This document shows positions 1 through 50,850 of a stretch of 64,000 bases of DNA, piece after piece; the stretch's first letter is position 1, and each line of letters starts with the position of its first letter. Below the pieces are notes generated by a model. That model saw only the letters and a program-made list of their open reading frames with translations, was not told where the DNA came from and ran no database searches. The stretch is from Pedococcus aerophilus (lineage in GTDB: Bacteria > Actinomycetota > Actinomycetes > Actinomycetales > Dermatophilaceae). The DNA lies in assembly GCF_039532215.1 (NCBI RefSeq), contig NZ_BAAARN010000003.1, positions 326,485-390,484 on the forward strand. The letters are read 5' to 3'. The translations under genes were made by a program, and so were the position numbers.

Positions 1-616
1 CGGCGATGACGGCACCGGCGGCCGTGAAGATGACGAGGTAGACGACCTTGTAGTCCATCGCCCAGTCAGTCCAGTAGACCTGCCACTCGTAGAGCGCCTC
101 GAGCGGGGCGCTGAGGGCACCGGCGAGCATGGCGGCGCCGAGGCCGAAGGCGCCGTAGCCGAGCAGGAGGAAGGCGATCTCGGCGCCGAGGCCCTGGAGG
201 ATGCCCGAGATCAGCACGGTCGCTCCCCACTGCGTGCCGGGGAGCATGGAGACGAGCGCCGCGATGACCTCGCAGAGCAGAGCTGCGCCGGGGCGCCGCA
301 CGACGAGGCCACCGACCACGCCGGCGATGAGCCAGGGGGCGGCGGTGATGCCCTGGAGCGGGGGGAACGCCTTGGTCAGGGCCTCGGCGGGCACGCCGTA
401 GGCGAGGCCCCAGCCCCAGTAGGCGATGCCGAACGCGGCGCCGAGGAAGGCGACGGTCAGCAGGTCGACCGTTCGCCACCCCATGAGGGAGCCGCTCGCG
501 CGGATGCTGCCTCCTCGACCGCGCGGGGACGGGCTGGAGCTGGTGGTGGTCTGCGTGGTGCTGTTCTTGGTGGTGCTGCTCTCGGCCGAGCCGGCCGGGG
601 TGTTGGTGGTGCTCAT
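1..616 (-). CDS. ykoE: YkoE-type ECF transporter S component (partial, 3' end off window)
   Basis: This is probably the substrate-binding membrane subunit of a thiamine or hydroxymethylpyrimidine ECF transporter. The reading frame is open from the ATG at 616 to the left edge, giving 205 codons without a stop. A Ser/Thr-rich cytoplasmic head of about 45 residues precedes MGWRTVDLLTVAFLGAAFG and several hydrophobic segments rich in Gly, Ala and aromatic residues. GGGAGG lies 7 bases before the ATG. The TPP riboswitch just upstream on the same strand is the strongest functional clue and indicates repression by thiamine pyrophosphate. In known YkoEDC operons the ATPase and T-component genes follow, and here they would lie beyond the left edge. 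The family assignment rests on recalled sequence resemblance plus the riboswitch. Confidence 0.88.
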   Translation of the reverse strand, partial: MSTTNTPAGSAESSTTKNSTTQTTTSSSPSPRGRGGSIRASGSLMGWRTVDLLTVAFLGAAFGIAYWGWGLAYGVPAEALTKAFPPLQGITAAPWLIAGVVGGLVVRRPGAALLCEVIAALVSMLPGTQWGATVLISGILQGLGAEIAFLLLGYGAFGLGAAMLAGALSAPLEALYEWQVYWTDWAMDYKVVYLVIFTAAGAVIA

Positions 617-44278: not shown

Positions 44279-45901
44279 GTGAGTCCGTCCGCCGAACGCC
44301 CACCACGTCGGCGGCGGCGTGTGCCCCTCCGCCTGCTGCGCCTCGGTGGGGTGCTGGCGCTGGTGGCGGCCTCCATCGTCGGCGGGGTCGCGGCGACGAC
44401 GTTGTTCCCGACGTCCGTGGACACGCTCAACTACGGCGCGAAGCTGCGCCTGTCGATCAACCCCACCGACCTCGGCACCATCCAGAGCCCGACGATCTTC
44501 GGGGAGATCCACCTCGACTTCGCCGGCCCCGTCCCGGCCCCCGGCGTGATCGCGAACGTCCAGGTCAAGGAACGCATCACCGACCTGCTCTCCCGCCCGA
44601 ACATCTCGATCAGCTCCCTGCAGCCCGGTCCGCTCGAGCTCGAGCGCGCCGCCCGCGACGCCGGCATCGGCCTGGCCCTGCGCTTCGCCGCCGGTGCCCT
44701 CGTCGTGACCCTCCTCGCGCTCGGCTCGTATGCCGCGTGGGCACGACGGCGTCCCCGGGCCAGTCGGCTCGGGGTCGCCGCCGCCTGCTGGGTCATCGCG
44801 TGCGCCGTGACGTTCGCCAGCATCGGGTTCGGCTACCGGCCCGAGCGGCTGGACCGCTTCACCACCACCGGGATCCTCGGCGCGGTGCAGCGCAACGCCG
44901 ACCTCCTGGCCGGGGTGGAGACGCGCGCCGAGCAGACGACGCCGTACCTGAAGAACCTGCTCGCCCTCTCGTCCGCCTTGCAGGACAAGTACTCCCCGCA
45001 GTCGCTCGGCGAGCCGGTGGCGGCCCGGGTGCTGCTGGTCTCCGACATCCACGGGGCGAACCAGTACCCGCTGATGAAGACGATCGTGGCGCAGGAGCAG
45101 ATCGACGCGGTGATCGACGCAGGCGACCTCGTCAACTTCGGCACCCTCGCGGAGGCCCAGGCGTCGGGCGTCCTGGACGGCATCCGGTCGCTCGACGTGC
45201 CCTACGTCTTCGTCAAGGGCAACCACGACGCCCGGTCCGCCAGCGACACCGAGCTGTTGCGGGCGCTCGCGAAGATCCCCAACGTCGTCCTGCTCCAGCC
45301 GGACGACGACACCTACACGGTGCAGAGCATCGGTGGAATCCGCATCGCCGGGTTCAACGACCCCCGCTGGTTCGGCGACGACAACCGCGACAACGCCGCG
45401 AAGCAGAAGGCGCCGGCGGCACGGTTCGCGTCCGCGATGGCGGACCTCGCCCCGCCCGACGTCCTCGTGGCCCACGAGCCGGGTGCGGTGGACGCGGTCG
45501 AACAGCGGTCGGGCATCAAGGTCCACGGCCACCTGCACTCCGACCGCCTTGACGGCAACACCATCGGGGTCGGGACCTTCACCGGCGGTGGAGCGTTCAG
45601 CCACTTCCTCCAGGCGGGCGAGGGCGAGGAGCTCACGGGTCAGCCGTCGTCCTTCGACGTCGCGGTGTTCGGTGAGGACTGCGCCCTCACGTCCCTCACG
45701 CGGTACCAGTTCCGCAACGTCATCGAGGGCCGACCGGCGTACGACGACGTGACCCTGATCAACGGCTCGCGGATCGAGTCGCAGCTGCCGCCGGTGCCTG
45801 CACCGGCGAGCACCGGCGCCACGGCCGAGCCCAGCGCCCCCCGCACCTGCTCCGCGGACGCCGAGCCCACGACGGAACGCGTGGCGGCTCCCCCGCGTTG
45901 A
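44279..45901 (+). CDS. Membrane-anchored metallophosphoesterase
   Basis: The 540-residue protein has an Arg-rich N-terminus, a membrane segment near residues 19-40, an external stretch, two further membrane segments around 130-185, and a C-terminal calcineurin-like domain. Metal motifs are LLVSDIHGANQYPL, IDAGDLVNFG, VKGNHDARS, LVAHEP and HGHLH. A low-complexity Ala/Pro/Glu tail follows. It is unrelated in layout to the two exported phosphoesterases near the left end. TACGGT exactly 6 bases before GTG 44279 supports this start and a leaderless transcript. Confidence 0.92.
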   Translation: MSPSAERPPRRRRRVPLRLLRLGGVLALVAASIVGGVAATTLFPTSVDTLNYGAKLRLSINPTDLGTIQSPTIFGEIHLDFAGPVPAPGVIANVQVKERITDLLSRPNISISSLQPGPLELERAARDAGIGLALRFAAGALVVTLLALGSYAAWARRRPRASRLGVAAACWVIACAVTFASIGFGYRPERLDRFTTTGILGAVQRNADLLAGVETRAEQTTPYLKNLLALSSALQDKYSPQSLGEPVAARVLLVSDIHGANQYPLMKTIVAQEQIDAVIDAGDLVNFGTLAEAQASGVLDGIRSLDVPYVFVKGNHDARSASDTELLRALAKIPNVVLLQPDDDTYTVQSIGGIRIAGFNDPRWFGDDNRDNAAKQKAPAARFASAMADLAPPDVLVAHEPGAVDAVEQRSGIKVHGHLHSDRLDGNTIGVGTFTGGGAFSHFLQAGEGEELTGQPSSFDVAVFGEDCALTSLTRYQFRNVIEGRPAYDDVTLINGSRIESQLPPVPAPASTGATAEPSAPRTCSADAEPTTERVAAPPR

Positions 45902-45936
45902 GATGTGGCCACTGCGCCACCGTCGCGAGGAGAAGC

Positions 45937-46584
45937 ATGACCACGACCGAGTTCGACCGCCAGCTCCGGACCTACCTGGACACCGGGTGGCCCGACCTCT
46001 CCGGCTTGTCCGTCGAGGACTTCGCCGCGATGGTGGAACCGTTGCGGGACAAGGCAGCTCAGCTCGAGGCGACGGTCTCGGACGAAGGCTCCAGCGTCGG
46101 CACCGGCCCGGTCGACCCGCCGATCCCGTTCGCCCTCGTCGTCACGTCGCAGGTCGTGACCGCCGACCGTGCCCTGCCGTCCATCCACTGGCGCACGACG
46201 ACCGGGTGGACGGAGTACTCCGCGGACGAGCTCGCCGCCTACGCACCCGTCGACGGCGTCGAGCTCCCGCACCCGACGGCATACCTCGTCACCGGGGTGG
46301 ACACCGGGAAAGGGACCCTCGACGTGCGCGCGAAGGACGCCGTGCCGATCATCGAGGCACAGGGCCGCAGCCCGCTGACCGTCGACGAAGGGGTCTGCCT
46401 GCTGGCGCTCTTCCCCGGGATCCTCAAGGACCGCAACGCCTTCTTCCTGCCCGGGTCCCGCGACACGACCAAGCGGGTGGCCGCTCTGTGGGTGAGCAAG
46501 GGGCACCCCCGGCTGGGCTGGTGCTGGGAGGGCAACCCCCACACCTGGCTGGGCTCGGCGTCCTGCGTCGGACGGGTGGCCTGA
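45937..46584 (+). CDS. DUF5701 family protein
   Basis: The 215-residue soluble protein fits DUF5701: HPTAYLVTGVDTGKGTLDVR and PLTVDEGVCLLALFPGILKD are the conserved regions, ending RLGWCWEGNPHTWLGSASC. The function is unknown. GAGGAG lies 6 bases before the ATG. It follows the phosphoesterase by 35 bases on the same strand and may be co-transcribed with it. Confidence 0.82.
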   Translation: MTTTEFDRQLRTYLDTGWPDLSGLSVEDFAAMVEPLRDKAAQLEATVSDEGSSVGTGPVDPPIPFALVVTSQVVTADRALPSIHWRTTTGWTEYSADELAAYAPVDGVELPHPTAYLVTGVDTGKGTLDVRAKDAVPIIEAQGRSPLTVDEGVCLLALFPGILKDRNAFFLPGSRDTTKRVAALWVSKGHPRLGWCWEGNPHTWLGSASCVGRVA

Positions 46585-46630
46585 GGCCGCCGTCGCGGCC
46601 GCCGCTGCCGACTCAGATCCAGGACCGGGG

Positions 46631-47548
46631 TCAGGGGGCGTGCTCGACGCCGGGGATGCGCAGAGCCCCGACCGACCAGCTCCAGGCGCTGGACCCCGAC
46701 TCGGCCCGGCAGGTCAGCCGCGCCGGCGGGGCCACGGTGCGGGTCACGTCTGCCTGCACGAGCACCGGGAGCCGCCCGGTGCCCAGGACCGTGACGCGGA
46801 AGGAGTCCTTGCCGGTGCTGTCGCACAGGGCGTCGCGGACGTCGTCCAGGCCGGCTGGTCCGTAGCTCGACAGCACGGCGGACAGCGCGGCCTGCACGGC
46901 CGGCGGGCGGGTAGAGACCCCGCGGAAGTAGCGGGCCGTGACGGTGCCGCGCAGGTGCGCCTCGACCACGTCGAGGGCCGAGCTCACGTCGAGGTTGCCG
47001 TAGTAGGCGCCGTCGGGCAGCAGCAGGACGTTGGGCGCGAACCGGTCGCCGCCGATGTGCGAGCACTCCCACGTGCGGTCGGCCCACCGGGCTGACAACG
47101 CCGCCACGACCGGGCGACCGCGCACCGCGCAGCAGACGTCGTGGCGGCCGTGGGCGCACACGAGCACGAGCGGCGGGGTGGAGCGGGCCCGGGCGGTCGC
47201 GGGGGGCTGCGGCCCGGCACGCATGACGTCGGCCGCGACGAGCAGGTCCTCGGCGTGCCGCCAGGTGCCCCACTCCTGGGTCCCCGTGTGGTCGACGACG
47301 GCCCAGGACCGGACCACCCGGTGAGGTCGTCGGCCGGGGCGGCGGATGAGGAGCGCGCGACCCTGCACCGCCATGGCCGCCTCGTGCAGGGCGCGACCGA
47401 CCGGCCCCACGAGGCCTGGGCTGTCCAACGCGGTGGGCAGCCACGGACCGTCGTGCTCGACCAGCAGCCAACGCTTCGCGGGCGCCGCCGAGGCGGTGAG
47501 GGAGTCCCCCCGGACGCGCGCCTCGGTCGCGCAGTGCGGCGTGGTCAC
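46631..47548 (-). CDS. Sucrase/ferredoxin-like (thioredoxin-fold [2Fe-2S]) protein
   Basis: The 305-residue protein belongs to the sucrase/ferredoxin-like family. The thioredoxin-fold core shows VCAHGRHDVCCAVRGRPVVA, ECSHIGGDRFAPNVLLLPDG and the following Tyr-rich YYGNLDVSSALDVVEAHLRG. The Cys residues before and within the CCAVRG block suit a [2Fe-2S] cluster as in thioredoxin-like ferredoxins. GTG at 47548 overlaps the JmjC gene stop as GTGA, so it is translationally coupled to it. It could deliver electrons or keep iron reduced for the oxygenase; that is inference. Standalone members are otherwise of unknown role. Confidence 0.9.
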   Translation of the reverse strand: MTTPHCATEARVRGDSLTASAAPAKRWLLVEHDGPWLPTALDSPGLVGPVGRALHEAAMAVQGRALLIRRPGRRPHRVVRSWAVVDHTGTQEWGTWRHAEDLLVAADVMRAGPQPPATARARSTPPLVLVCAHGRHDVCCAVRGRPVVAALSARWADRTWECSHIGGDRFAPNVLLLPDGAYYGNLDVSSALDVVEAHLRGTVTARYFRGVSTRPPAVQAALSAVLSSYGPAGLDDVRDALCDSTGKDSFRVTVLGTGRLPVLVQADVTRTVAPPARLTCRAESGSSAWSWSVGALRIPGVEHAP

Positions 47549-48783
47549 GCCGCGACGGCGATGCCGGCCAGGACCAGCCGCCGCGCGAGGTCGGTACCGA
47601 GCTCGCCCGCCGTCGCCCCGCCCTCGTCGAGGAACGCCTTGACGGTGGTGAGCTCATCGCTTTCTAGGCGCAGGGTGCCGGCCCGAGTCGTCAGGACGGC
47701 GTACCCGTCGTGGTCGGCCAGCTCGGGCGTCAGGTGCGCTCGAACGACCAGCGCGGTGTCGTCCTCCAGTGCGTGGGCGAGCGCGTGCTGGGCCAGCGGC
47801 GCCACCGGCGCGGCGCGCTGGGCTCCGCGAGCGGAGGACGACAGGGCGGTGACGAGGTCGGAGGCGTCCAGCTCGGAGACCGCGCGCACGAGGGCGGCTC
47901 GGACGAGCTCGACGTCGGCTGCGCGGGCAGCGGGGTCCGCGAGGGAGGTACCCAGCGGGAGCGAGGCCCGCACGGAGGGGTCCTTCGCCGCGGAGGACAA
48001 CGCGACCTTGAGCATCTCGTCGGCGAGGTGGTGGCGGGTCCAGGAGTGCACCCCGATGGTGAGGTGGGTGCTCACGCCGCCCTGGGCGGTCGCGGAGTGC
48101 AGGTAGCCGCGCGGCAGGTAGAGGCAGTCGCCCGGCTCGAGGGTGGTCTCGAGCATCGGCACCTCCTGCGCCGCGGCCTCGACGGCTGCACGCCGGTCGG
48201 TCCAGGGCTCGGTGCGCAGCGGGCTCTCGTGGACGGGGCGGCGGATCCGCCACCGCTTGGCGCCGGAGATCTGCAGCACGAACACGTCGTGCACGTCGTA
48301 GTGGTCGCTGAAGCCGGTGTTCTGCGGCGGGGTGACGTAGGCGTTGACCTGGGTCGGGTGCCCGAGGTCGGCGGCCAGCTGCTGGGCGAACTCGACCACC
48401 GGCGCCCACGTCCGGTGCAGACCCTGGAGCACGAGCGTCGCGCCCTCGGCGAACTGGCGCAGGACGAGGTCGTCACTGGCCTGGTCGGCGATGGCCGCAC
48501 CGGTGCCGCCCCCGCGGGTGAATGCGCGGTCGGGCAGCGTCGAGCCCTCCTTGGCCATGCGCAGGAAGGGGGTCCGCAGGCCACGCGTGGAGATCAGCTC
48601 GTCCACCGCGGACTCGGAGAACAGGTCGTCGAAGGGCAGCGGCAGGTCACGGGCCCGGGTGAGCAGCGGCTCGCTCCCCCAGTGCTCCCCCGCGAACGTC
48701 TCTGCGTCGACGGCGATGAGCCGACGCAGCGCAGGATGACCGCTCGGCGGAGCGGTCATCCTGCGGCTGGTCGTTGCTGTCAT
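47545..48783 (-). CDS. JmjC/cupin (ROXA-like) Fe(II)/2-oxoglutarate oxygenase
   Basis: The 412-residue protein matches the ribosomal-oxygenase-like JmjC family (cupin_4: YcfD, MINA53, NO66). Fe(II) ligands are His161 and Asp163 in TGFSDHYDVHDVF and His229 in LYLPRGYLHSA. Lys176 in GAKRWRIRRP is placed to bind 2-oxoglutarate. A C-terminal winged-helix-like part covers about residues 300-412. Such enzymes hydroxylate Arg, His, Asn or Asp in proteins. It lies 36 bases after a short peptide gene rich in Asp, His, Asn and Gly, and is overlapped by the ferredoxin-like gene, so it may modify that peptide. The substrate is inferred. Confidence 0.91.
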   Translation of the reverse strand: MTATTSRRMTAPPSGHPALRRLIAVDAETFAGEHWGSEPLLTRARDLPLPFDDLFSESAVDELISTRGLRTPFLRMAKEGSTLPDRAFTRGGGTGAAIADQASDDLVLRQFAEGATLVLQGLHRTWAPVVEFAQQLAADLGHPTQVNAYVTPPQNTGFSDHYDVHDVFVLQISGAKRWRIRRPVHESPLRTEPWTDRRAAVEAAAQEVPMLETTLEPGDCLYLPRGYLHSATAQGGVSTHLTIGVHSWTRHHLADEMLKVALSSAAKDPSVRASLPLGTSLADPAARAADVELVRAALVRAVSELDASDLVTALSSSARGAQRAAPVAPLAQHALAHALEDDTALVVRAHLTPELADHDGYAVLTTRAGTLRLESDELTTVKAFLDEGGATAGELGTDLARRLVLAGIAVAA

Positions 48784-48819
48784 CCTCGGGAGGGACTCGG
48801 GTCCGGAAGGACCGTGGTC

Positions 48820-49125
48820 CTAGCTGGCTCCGCCGTCGGCGCCACCGTCGTGTCCGCCCGGGTTGGCACCACCGTCAGCCGGGCCCTCGCCCGCGCCGCC
48901 GTCGGCTCCACCGTCAGCGCCGCCGTCAGCTCCGCCGTCGGCACCGCCGTCCGCGCCACCGTCGTGTCCGCCGGGGTTGGCACCACCGTCAGCCGGGCCC
49001 TCGCCCGCGCCGCCGTCGGCTCCACCGTCAGCGCCGCCGTCGTGTCCGCCCGGGTTGGCGCCGCCGTCGGCCGGGCCTTCGCCGGTGGCCTCGGGGTCCA
49101 CGGGGGTGAGAGGGGTCTCGCTCAT
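48820..49125 (-). CDS. Gly/Asp-rich tandem repeat peptide
   Basis: The 101-residue product has a short leader (MSETPLTPVDPEATG) and three copies of EGPADGGANPGGHDGG. Each copy is extended by ADGG units (two, five and one). It has no signal peptide and no cysteine. Gene status is supported by AAGGGAG 7 bases before the ATG, the clear in-frame repeats and the tight link to the JmjC gene. The repeated Asp, Asn and His residues are possible hydroxylation targets. I know similar low-complexity proteins occur in actinobacteria but cannot name a function. It might be a precursor peptide, metal buffer or spacer protein. Confidence 0.8.
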   Translation of the reverse strand: MSETPLTPVDPEATGEGPADGGANPGGHDGGADGGADGGAGEGPADGGANPGGHDGGADGGADGGADGGADGGADGGAGEGPADGGANPGGHDGGADGGAS

Positions 49126-49239
49126 GGCTGTGCTCCCTTGTCAGTCGTCGTGCCTGCTGGGCGACAGCACACCTGCCGCCTCGTCCTTCCTATTGCACTT
49201 CACCGCACGGCGCCACCCCTGCAGCCACATCCGTGCAGG

Positions 49240-49647
49240 TCAGGGCCGCGGCACCAGGCCCGCGACACGGCACAGGGCAGCGAAACCGTCGTCGCTCCCC
49301 CGCCAGTGCCGCCGCAGCTCGTCGAGGCCGACGGACCGCGCCACCGAGCGCAGGGTCCACACGACGACGACCACGTCGTCGGCATACCCGATGACGGGGA
49401 GGAAGTCGGGCACGAGGTCGAAGGGCATCGCGAGGTACCCGAGCAGCAGCCCGAGCCGCACCCGCACGCCACGGGGTTGGGACGAGTCCGCCGCCACGTC
49501 GCGCAGGAGCCGCAGGAGGTCCGGCAGCAGGCGCAGCGACTCGGTGAGCAGCGACCCCTTGGGCCGGACCAGGAGCAGCGCCACCAGCAGGGCGAGCCAC
49601 GTGACGGCGAGACCCGCGGCCAACCCCAGGAGCAGTTCACGCCACAT
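49240..49647 (-). CDS. DUF1232 (YkvA-type) membrane protein
   Basis: The 135-residue protein has a hydrophobic N-terminal segment (LLLGLAAGLAVTWLALLVAL). After an amphipathic region comes the DUF1232 core LLLGYLAMPFDLVPDFLPVI followed by GYADDVVVVVWTL. Family members are small membrane-associated proteins of unknown function. ATG at 49647 is chosen because the first hydrophobic segment starts just after it; an ATG at 49686 would add 13 residues. Confidence 0.85.
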   Translation of the reverse strand: MWRELLLGLAAGLAVTWLALLVALLLVRPKGSLLTESLRLLPDLLRLLRDVAADSSQPRGVRVRLGLLLGYLAMPFDLVPDFLPVIGYADDVVVVVWTLRSVARSVGLDELRRHWRGSDDGFAALCRVAGLVPRP

Positions 49648-49767
49648 GGATCGCGAGTCTGTCAGGGCGCGGTAAGAAGTTGGCAAGGGTTCGGTGCCGA
49701 ACCGTCACGAAGCACCCGCCCGCCCTACTGTGCGAGGCACCGATCAGTGGACCTCAGGGAGTAGTCA

Positions 49768-50850
49768 ATGGCGATGACCCGGACGTTCGGCGCGATCACG
49801 GCCCTGATGGCCGGCACCGCGCTCACGTTGTCAGCAGCACCCGCTCAGGCAGCGGGTTCCTATGTCGCACTAGGCGACTCGTACTCGTCAGGCACGGGCA
49901 CCCGCAGCTACATCAACGACGGGACGGCCTGCCAGCGGTCGGTGTACGCCTACCCCTCCCTCGTCTCCGCGAGCAAGGGCCTGACGCTGAACTTCCGGGC
50001 CTGCTCCGGCGCGACCGTCGCCGACGTCACCAACACCCAGCTCAGCGCGCTCTCCTCGTCGACGACCCAGGTGAGCATCTCGGTGGGCGGCAACGACGCC
50101 GGGTTCGCCGACGTCCTCACCGAGTGCGCCCAGCCGGGATGGGCCAGCGACTGCGACGGCGCCATCGACGACGCCCAGGCGATCGTCAACACCACGCTCC
50201 CCGGCCGGCTGTCGACGCTCTACTCCTCGATAAGGTCCAAGGCCCCGAACGCCAAGGTCGTCGTCGTCGGTTACCCCCGCATCTTCATGGGCGAGGACTG
50301 CAACGCGTTGACGTGGTTCTCCCCCGCGGAGGAGGCCCGGCTCAACGCGACCGCCGACCTGCTCAACAGCAGGACCGCCTCGGCTGCCGCAGCGAAGGGG
50401 TTCACCTTCGCCAACCCCACCAGCCGGTTCACCGGGCACGCGGTCTGCGACTCCGTCGAGTGGCTCAACGGCCTGTCGAACCCGATCAGCGACAGCTACC
50501 ACCCCAACGTCGCCGGGCACCGCGACGGGTACGCCCCGCTCGTCAGCACGCCGCTGACGGGCAGCACCCTCAAGATCTCCTCCACCACCCTGCGCACCGC
50601 CGAGGCCAGCAGCACCCGACTCGCCGACCAGCAGAAGCGTTACGCGGCAGCGGATTCCACGATCGAGCCGAAGGTCTTCCGCGCCCCCGACCTGAGCTCG
50701 CCAGAGATCAGGGCAGCAGCGAAGCGCGCCGGTGTCGACCTGTCCAGCCGGGCCAGCATCGACGCGGCCGACCGCGAGTGGTCGCAGCGCCAGGCCCAGC
50801 AGCAGGCGCAGGAGCAGGGCGCCACCGAGCAGGAGTCGGCCACCCGCTGA
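49768..50850 (+). CDS. Secreted SGNH/GDSL hydrolase
   Basis: The 360-residue protein has a Sec signal peptide cleaved near AQA-28. The SGNH blocks are YVALGDSYSSG (nucleophile Ser38), the oxyanion Gly region LNFRACSGATV, VGGNDAGF with Asn, and SDSYHPNVAGH with the catalytic Asp/His. Paired cysteines are as in the Streptomyces scabies esterase and Streptomyces lipases. A Gln/Ala-rich C-terminal extension of about 90 residues is unusual. CAGGGAG precedes the ATG. It is probably a lipase or esterase acting outside the cell. Confidence 0.94.
   Translation: MAMTRTFGAITALMAGTALTLSAAPAQAAGSYVALGDSYSSGTGTRSYINDGTACQRSVYAYPSLVSASKGLTLNFRACSGATVADVTNTQLSALSSSTTQVSISVGGNDAGFADVLTECAQPGWASDCDGAIDDAQAIVNTTLPGRLSTLYSSIRSKAPNAKVVVVGYPRIFMGEDCNALTWFSPAEEARLNATADLLNSRTASAAAAKGFTFANPTSRFTGHAVCDSVEWLNGLSNPISDSYHPNVAGHRDGYAPLVSTPLTGSTLKISSTTLRTAEASSTRLADQQKRYAAADSTIEPKVFRAPDLSSPEIRAAAKRAGVDLSSRASIDAADREWSQRQAQQQAQEQGATEQESATR

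Follow-up and report, generated by a model that had tools for sequence, protein, structure and literature searches.

The window analysed here, a stretch of 64,000 nucleotides (nt) from Pedococcus aerophilus (contig NZ_BAAARN010000003.1), carries on its minus strand a small gene for an Asp-containing repeat peptide, followed by a gene for a JmjC oxygenase and one for a Suc_Fer-type ferredoxin-like protein (Table 1). The three genes form one apparent operon. Counted to the first ATG of jmjC, 36 nt separate it from the peptide gene, as a previous sequence-only reading of this DNA had it; a second ATG, 8 codons in (48759), is a possible alternative start. The jmjC and suc_fer genes overlap by 4 nt (GTGA). 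The 101-residue peptide contains exactly three exact copies of EGPADGGANPGGHDGG with ADGG runs of unequal length between them, in agreement with the first description. It consists of about 40% Gly and about 15% Asp, lacks Cys and has few aromatic residues. The coordinates 47545-48820, originally assigned to the whole unit, need correction: they span the oxygenase gene but reach the peptide gene only at its last base. The genome of the window encodes a single close copy of this JmjC protein.

Table 1. Features of the peptide-JmjC-Suc_Fer unit in the window
Feature	Position	Strand	Remarks
Repeat (precursor-like) peptide gene, ADGG type, 101 aa	48820-49125	minus	open frame; purifying selection; conserved 5' of jmjC
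Leader-like N-terminus MSETPLTPVDPEATG	49081-49125	minus	motif shared with relatives in part of the family; putative function
Repeat copy 1, EGPADGGANPGGHDGG	49033-49080	minus	aa 16-31
Repeat copy 2, EGPADGGANPGGHDGG	48955-49002	minus	aa 42-57
Repeat copy 3, EGPADGGANPGGHDGG	48841-48888	minus	aa 80-95
JmjC (PF08007) Fe(II)/2-oxoglutarate oxygenase, ribosomal oxygenase (ROX) type	47545-48783	minus	412 aa from first ATG
C-terminal winged-helix / RRE-like domain of JmjC	residues ~340-412		predicted from the model
Suc_Fer-like protein, 305 aa	46631-47548	minus	thioredoxin-like [2Fe-2S] ferredoxin fold; C131-X8-C140 ... H164-X3-D168
Candidate -10 promoter element CAATAGGA	49188-49195	minus	by eye; same place in close relatives

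The peptide evolves under purifying selection at the protein level. In a comparison with its nearest relative (locus L031), 58 codons are the same, 33 carry synonymous and 6 non-synonymous changes, and third codon positions account for 38 of the 45 base differences. Low-complexity drift would not explain such a third-position bias, and a chance open reading frame (ORF) is ruled out by the same codon-position data. No family in Pfam or NCBIfam matches the peptides scanned. A literature search, which did not cover most subscription journals, yielded neither a description of an ADGG-repeat precursor, its pairing or the three-gene form, nor a match for the repeat and core strings of ADGG-type and variant peptides (see below for the types).

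The pairing of peptide and oxygenase is near-exclusive and near obligatory. In a class sample of 297 Actinomycetes genomes, JmjC relatives were split by score into a close group, comprising 50 full-length proteins and 1 fragment at a contig end (51/297 genomes), and a remoter set. Directly 5' of the 50 full-length genes lies an ADGG-type peptide in 46 cases, a DGD/DTT-type peptide in 2 and a diverged acidic peptide in 2, both from Arsenicicoccus-like genomes. Similarly, 76 of 80 named JmjC loci have the ADGG-type peptide, while of the other 4, 3 are truncated by a contig end and 1 belongs to Arsenicicoccus. The ADGG type is spread over at least 26 named genera, 12 families and 6 orders. For the reverse search, the same 297 genomes were scanned at the DNA level for sequences encoding DGGADGGA, irrespective of JmjC; a looser pattern for GPADGGA had been uninformative and was replaced. 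All 30 genomes with at least three matches carry a close JmjC protein, compared to 51 of 297 overall (Fisher 9e-28). Among the matches listed, the arrays are located immediately 5' of jmjC; sites elsewhere with only one or two matches look like background. A precursor gene beside a dedicated modifying enzyme, the arrangement by which ribosomally synthesized and post-translationally modified peptide (RiPP) pathways are recognized, is found in 46 of 50 cases plus the 2 variants, and in the reverse direction in 30 of 30. The sequence-only reading had proposed the peptide-JmjC link and a genome search for co-occurrence. The co-occurrence supports this link, with an Asp-repeat peptide upstream in 48 of the 50 JmjC relatives and an oxygenase gene in every array genome; the refuting outcome named there, a peptide gene that usually stands without the oxygenase, was not encountered. 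The suggested layout of precursor, enzyme and helper recurs in the at least 26 genera, but the helper is not required.

The oxygenase matches Pfam family PF08007 (JmjC_2, E=3e-27); NCBIfam yields no match for it. Its best named match, from Phycicoccus sp. Root101, is 83% identical. The Fe ligands H161, D163 and H229 are present and conserved in 99-100% of 177 relatives, and K176, which binds 2-oxoglutarate and aligns with the corresponding Lys of NO66, is invariant among them. The AlphaFold2 model (pLDDT 95) comprises a double-stranded beta-helix followed by helical and winged-helix C-terminal domains. In the C-terminal part, the model predicts strands at residues 344-374 and helices at 375-405, where ROX enzymes also have a winged helix. 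Foldseek ranks NO66 first (E=6.5e-26, TM 0.66), followed by MINA53, YcfD and YxbC; the ROX enzymes NO66 and MINA53 are the closest solved relatives. The earlier assignment as a ROXA-like JmjC enzyme with intact ligands is thereby confirmed. With the ROX family (NO66, MINA53, YcfD; PF08007) the protein shares the JmjC domain, the HxD...H triad, the Lys for 2-oxoglutarate and the C-terminal winged helix. In contrast to the known ROX members, which modify ribosomal proteins at His or Arg, the members of this JmjC clade are linked genetically to a small Asp-repeat peptide and display an HxDxHD signature.

To narrow down the probable target residue, 111 canonical repeat units were anchored without fixing the Asp positions. 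D5, D16 and D20 proved invariant. Position 15 is His in 65 units, Gln in 41 and Ser in 5. The site occupied by Asn in the window is taken by Ala, Glu, Ser, Asp or Phe. Among the three targets first suggested, Asp, Asn and His, only Asp is always present in the 130 ADGG-type peptides; His is missing in 17 and, after residue 20, Asn in 90; a Nocardioides peptide (L076) has neither. Asp is therefore the likely target, in view of its invariance and the frequent lack of Asn and His. Known targets of FIH and ROX enzymes are Asn, Asp, His or Arg residues, and beta-hydroxylation of Asp fits JmjC chemistry. On balance, we favour oxidation at Asp as the change introduced.

The ADGG type is part of a wider family. 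In remoter clades, jmjC adjoins genes for different short peptides that are likewise rich in Asp and have leader-like N-termini. Typing assigned 130 peptides to the ADGG type (type A) and 16 to type B, which has DGTDGD-like repeats and is usually accompanied by Suc_Fer. Type C reads MDP.EVEVEDL.EVTSRD.TAGGDSDGTDSSSDFI (core SDGTDSSSDFI) and type D ...SRGEQPSDGGGTGRSD.ND (core SDGGGTGRSD). The peptide type tracks the JmjC tree with 5 changes by parsimony, and all labels together require 13 changes compared to 38.7 in shuffles, in a tree where some deep branches are long and unsurely placed and three DGTD-type rows are still labelled A. A leader-like N-terminus, e.g. MALDDDDITTS, is common to type B and some of type A, and part of the family carries a (P)L..DDD[IM].TT-like motif there. 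A DD..T-type motif in this region is not universal: 13 of the 16 type B peptides and 42 of the 130 ADGG-type peptides have it, compared to about 8% in shuffles.

The remoter loci show further features. Short, RiPP-like type D peptides with an SDGGGTGRSDxND-type core at their end are encoded 5' of jmjC in L171, L172, L174, L176, L177, L186 and L192, and type C peptides (EVEVEDL...SDGTDSSSDFI) accompany JmjC in L187-L191, L194-L197, L201 and L202. At two inspected type C loci, a gene for an S9 prolyl oligopeptidase lies just 5', intact in L202 and as a fragment in L201. On a Streptomyces clavuligerus plasmid (L205:4787-4933), a 48-aa Asp/Pro-rich hypothetical peptide is encoded directly before a JmjC gene; this pair has S9 peptidase and ABC transporter genes in its vicinity and looks RiPP-type. 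By eye, an aminoglycoside-phosphotransferase-like gene is found near the remoter JmjC gene in L199 and L203. In L170, L185 and L175, a remote JmjC gene lies beside TfuA-like or nitroreductase-like genes (also by eye) or after an ORF ending in WDWDGTDGYFVTDPDPTDAAWHPA.

The third gene of the unit encodes a protein that matches Pfam family PF06999 (E=2e-19); NCBIfam has no match for it. It is linked to the unit but dispensable: among 128 non-redundant ADGG-type units for which the downstream sequence can be read, suc_fer adjoins jmjC in 93 and is absent there in 35, and it is missing from the unit in many lineages. In the Terrabacter/Humibacillus group, the operon-type Suc_Fer is missing and only a generic paralogue is present, and three Knoellia/Janibacter-like genomes carry a copy at another site, about 20-25 kb away in two cases. 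Conversely, each of the best 35 Suc_Fer matches in the 297 genomes has such a JmjC gene next to it. Electrons for JmjC turnover come from 2-oxoglutarate, which agrees with a dispensable Suc_Fer. Foldseek relates the model of the protein to the Aquifex ferredoxin TLF (1f37 and 1m2a) and to FeSI from A. vinelandii (5abr), i.e. to the thioredoxin-like ferredoxin fold. C131 and C140 are invariant (CX8C), and H164-X3-D168 stands where the bis-His subtype has HX3H. Across the family, Cys 6, 131, 139, 140 and 280 are invariant and HxGGD replaces the HX3H pair. The protein thus resembles the Apd1/Aim32 [2Fe-2S] ferredoxins (PF06999) in its fold and CX8C pair but differs from Aim32, whose ligand pair is HX3H (PMC8482512), and its cluster ligation may differ accordingly. 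The initial annotation as an overlapping [2Fe-2S] ferredoxin-like gene stands with respect to overlap and fold and has to be qualified with respect to the ligands.

The surroundings of the unit are variable. Up to 4 kb on each side of the named loci, no gene families other than jmjC and suc_fer recur broadly across genera, and the remaining neighbours are lineage-specific. In the window, the unit is flanked by genes for DUF1232 (49240-49686) and DUF5701 (45898-46584) proteins; a DUF1232 relative is found 5' of the unit only among close relatives of the window's genus. The candidate -10 element CAATAGGA was spotted by eye upstream in L001, L031, L032, L035 and L036. In Arthrobacter and Streptomyces (e.g. 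L084, L097, L079, L093), promoter-like blocks conserved by genus lie 5' of the peptide gene, CTGTTCC..GATAGGGT and CTCCGGTTGC..GTGAG, and the Arthrobacter block is followed by a GC-rich inverted repeat close to the presumed transcript start. Rfam has no match in 46500-49800. A defence system was rejected, as PADLOC gave no match, and a link to desferrioxamine desJGH that came up in the literature was dropped because desJGH are unrelated genes.

Taken as a whole, the unit is probably a minimal RiPP-like operon composed of a precursor peptide and a dedicated JmjC hydroxylase, and the peptide is very likely the substrate of this enzyme. The small gene would provide an Asp/Gly/Ala repeat precursor. 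JmjC probably recognizes it via the short N-terminal leader, the repeat and/or the winged-helix (RRE-like) domain at its own C-terminus, and would hydroxylate Asp in the repeated (A/S)-D-G-(G/S/T) units to yield several beta-hydroxyaspartates per chain. Suc_Fer may be an optional accessory that perhaps keeps iron reduced or acts on the modified product. For the hydroxy-Asp-rich chain, a role in metal binding or buffering is the most natural guess, if a tentative one. Beta-hydroxyaspartate serves as an iron ligand in siderophores, cupriachelin among them (PMC10484230), so such a chain would be well suited as a hard-metal ligand. In an extended and still more speculative version, a widespread class of intracellular ribosomal peptides would be converted by one JmjC enzyme into poly-hydroxyaspartyl, repeat-tunable ligands or buffers for iron or calcium, the dedicated thioredoxin-like ferredoxin would control metal redox, and the ADGG type would be the main branch of a JmjC-tailored Asp-rich family (types A-D).

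Several observations weigh against this interpretation. Gly, Ala and one Pro of the 111 canonical units are as invariant, or nearly so, as Asp, which makes Asp conservation an argument and not a proof. No exporter or protease is conserved with the ADGG-type unit within 4 kb at the named loci, unlike in most RiPP clusters, so the product would either stay inside the cell or use general machinery. None of the upstream regions scanned contains a DtxR-type iron box, the best match having at least 7 mismatches in 19 positions, which weakens an iron role. Finally, the nearest characterized enzymes, NO66 and MINA53, hydroxylate His, and most ADGG-type peptides contain His. The same system might therefore act on the His in PG.HDGG, with the ADGG runs serving as spacer or solubility segments. 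The kinship to His hydroxylases and the presence of His in 113 of 130 ADGG-type peptides speak for this, but 17 of these peptides are His-free, Gln replaces His in 41 of the 111 canonical units, and variant peptides mostly lack His (8/10, 8/9 and 5/7 in types B, C and D, as first classified), which makes a His target unlikely.

Two further explanations dispense with a modified peptide. JmjC could be a bacterial ribosomal oxygenase whose target is a ribosomal protein, with the upstream ORF as a regulatory or coupling element and not a substrate. Fold and domain order are those of ROX enzymes, and the short or overlapping junctions would suit translational coupling. A regulatory upstream ORF, however, would not need conservation of an Asp-repeat amino acid sequence across six orders. 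Moreover, the JmjC clade predicts the peptide type, the distribution is patchy (51/297 genomes) and related JmjC proteins occur in RiPP-like settings, so this explanation is improbable. Equally improbable is a peptide that remains unmodified, as an acidic, disordered cation-binding or stress protein, and whose gene is co-regulated with those of oxygenase and ferredoxin in one stress response in which neither of them acts on it. The composition would suit a disordered hydrophilic or cation-binding protein and no exporter gene travels with it, but only these genes stay together while other neighbours vary between genera, and co-regulation alone does not explain a near-obligatory peptide-JmjC pairing. 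That GC-rich simple repeats gave rise to the ORF as a by-product, as low-complexity, repeat-rich DNA in GC-rich genomes might suggest, can practically be dismissed in view of the third-position substitution bias, the strict frame, the ribosome-binding site and the conservation across 12 families.

The preferred reading, a JmjC hydroxylase dedicated to its neighbouring precursor, has precedents. BipG is a JmjC ornithine hydroxylase of the biphenomycin RiPP pathway (PMC12707348), so JmjC enzymes in RiPP pathways are a known kind of system. The precursor that BipG modifies is a ribosomal peptide encoded by an adjacent gene, as is proposed here. In contrast, its pathway includes genes for an MNIO, a radical SAM enzyme, a metallopeptidase and a transporter (PMC12707348), whereas the ADGG-type unit has a single oxygenase and many repeats but neither protease nor transporter. 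Bacterial PF08007 homologues of RRE-JmjC fusions also occur in RiPP-like contexts, and the accessible part of that report names no ADGG-type precursor, Suc_Fer partner or distribution (PMC12710340). Bufferins, MNIO-modified ribosomal metallophores (PMC12452194), offer an analogy only: there, too, an iron oxygenase makes a ribosomal peptide metal-binding, but enzyme superfamily and peptides are different, and metal binding is putative in our case. The ADGG-repeat precursor family, its near-obligatory pairing with JmjC and the three-gene form have no counterpart in Pfam, NCBIfam or the literature searched.

A two- or three-gene system for which no family model exists is thus present in about one-sixth of the sampled Actinomycetes genomes. 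With it, a ribosomal-oxygenase-like JmjC enzyme gains a probable non-ribosomal peptide substrate in bacteria. The system offers a simple route to study multi-site aspartate hydroxylation and, if the proposed mechanism holds true, would extend RiPP biology by a branch that is built on repeats and possibly intracellular.
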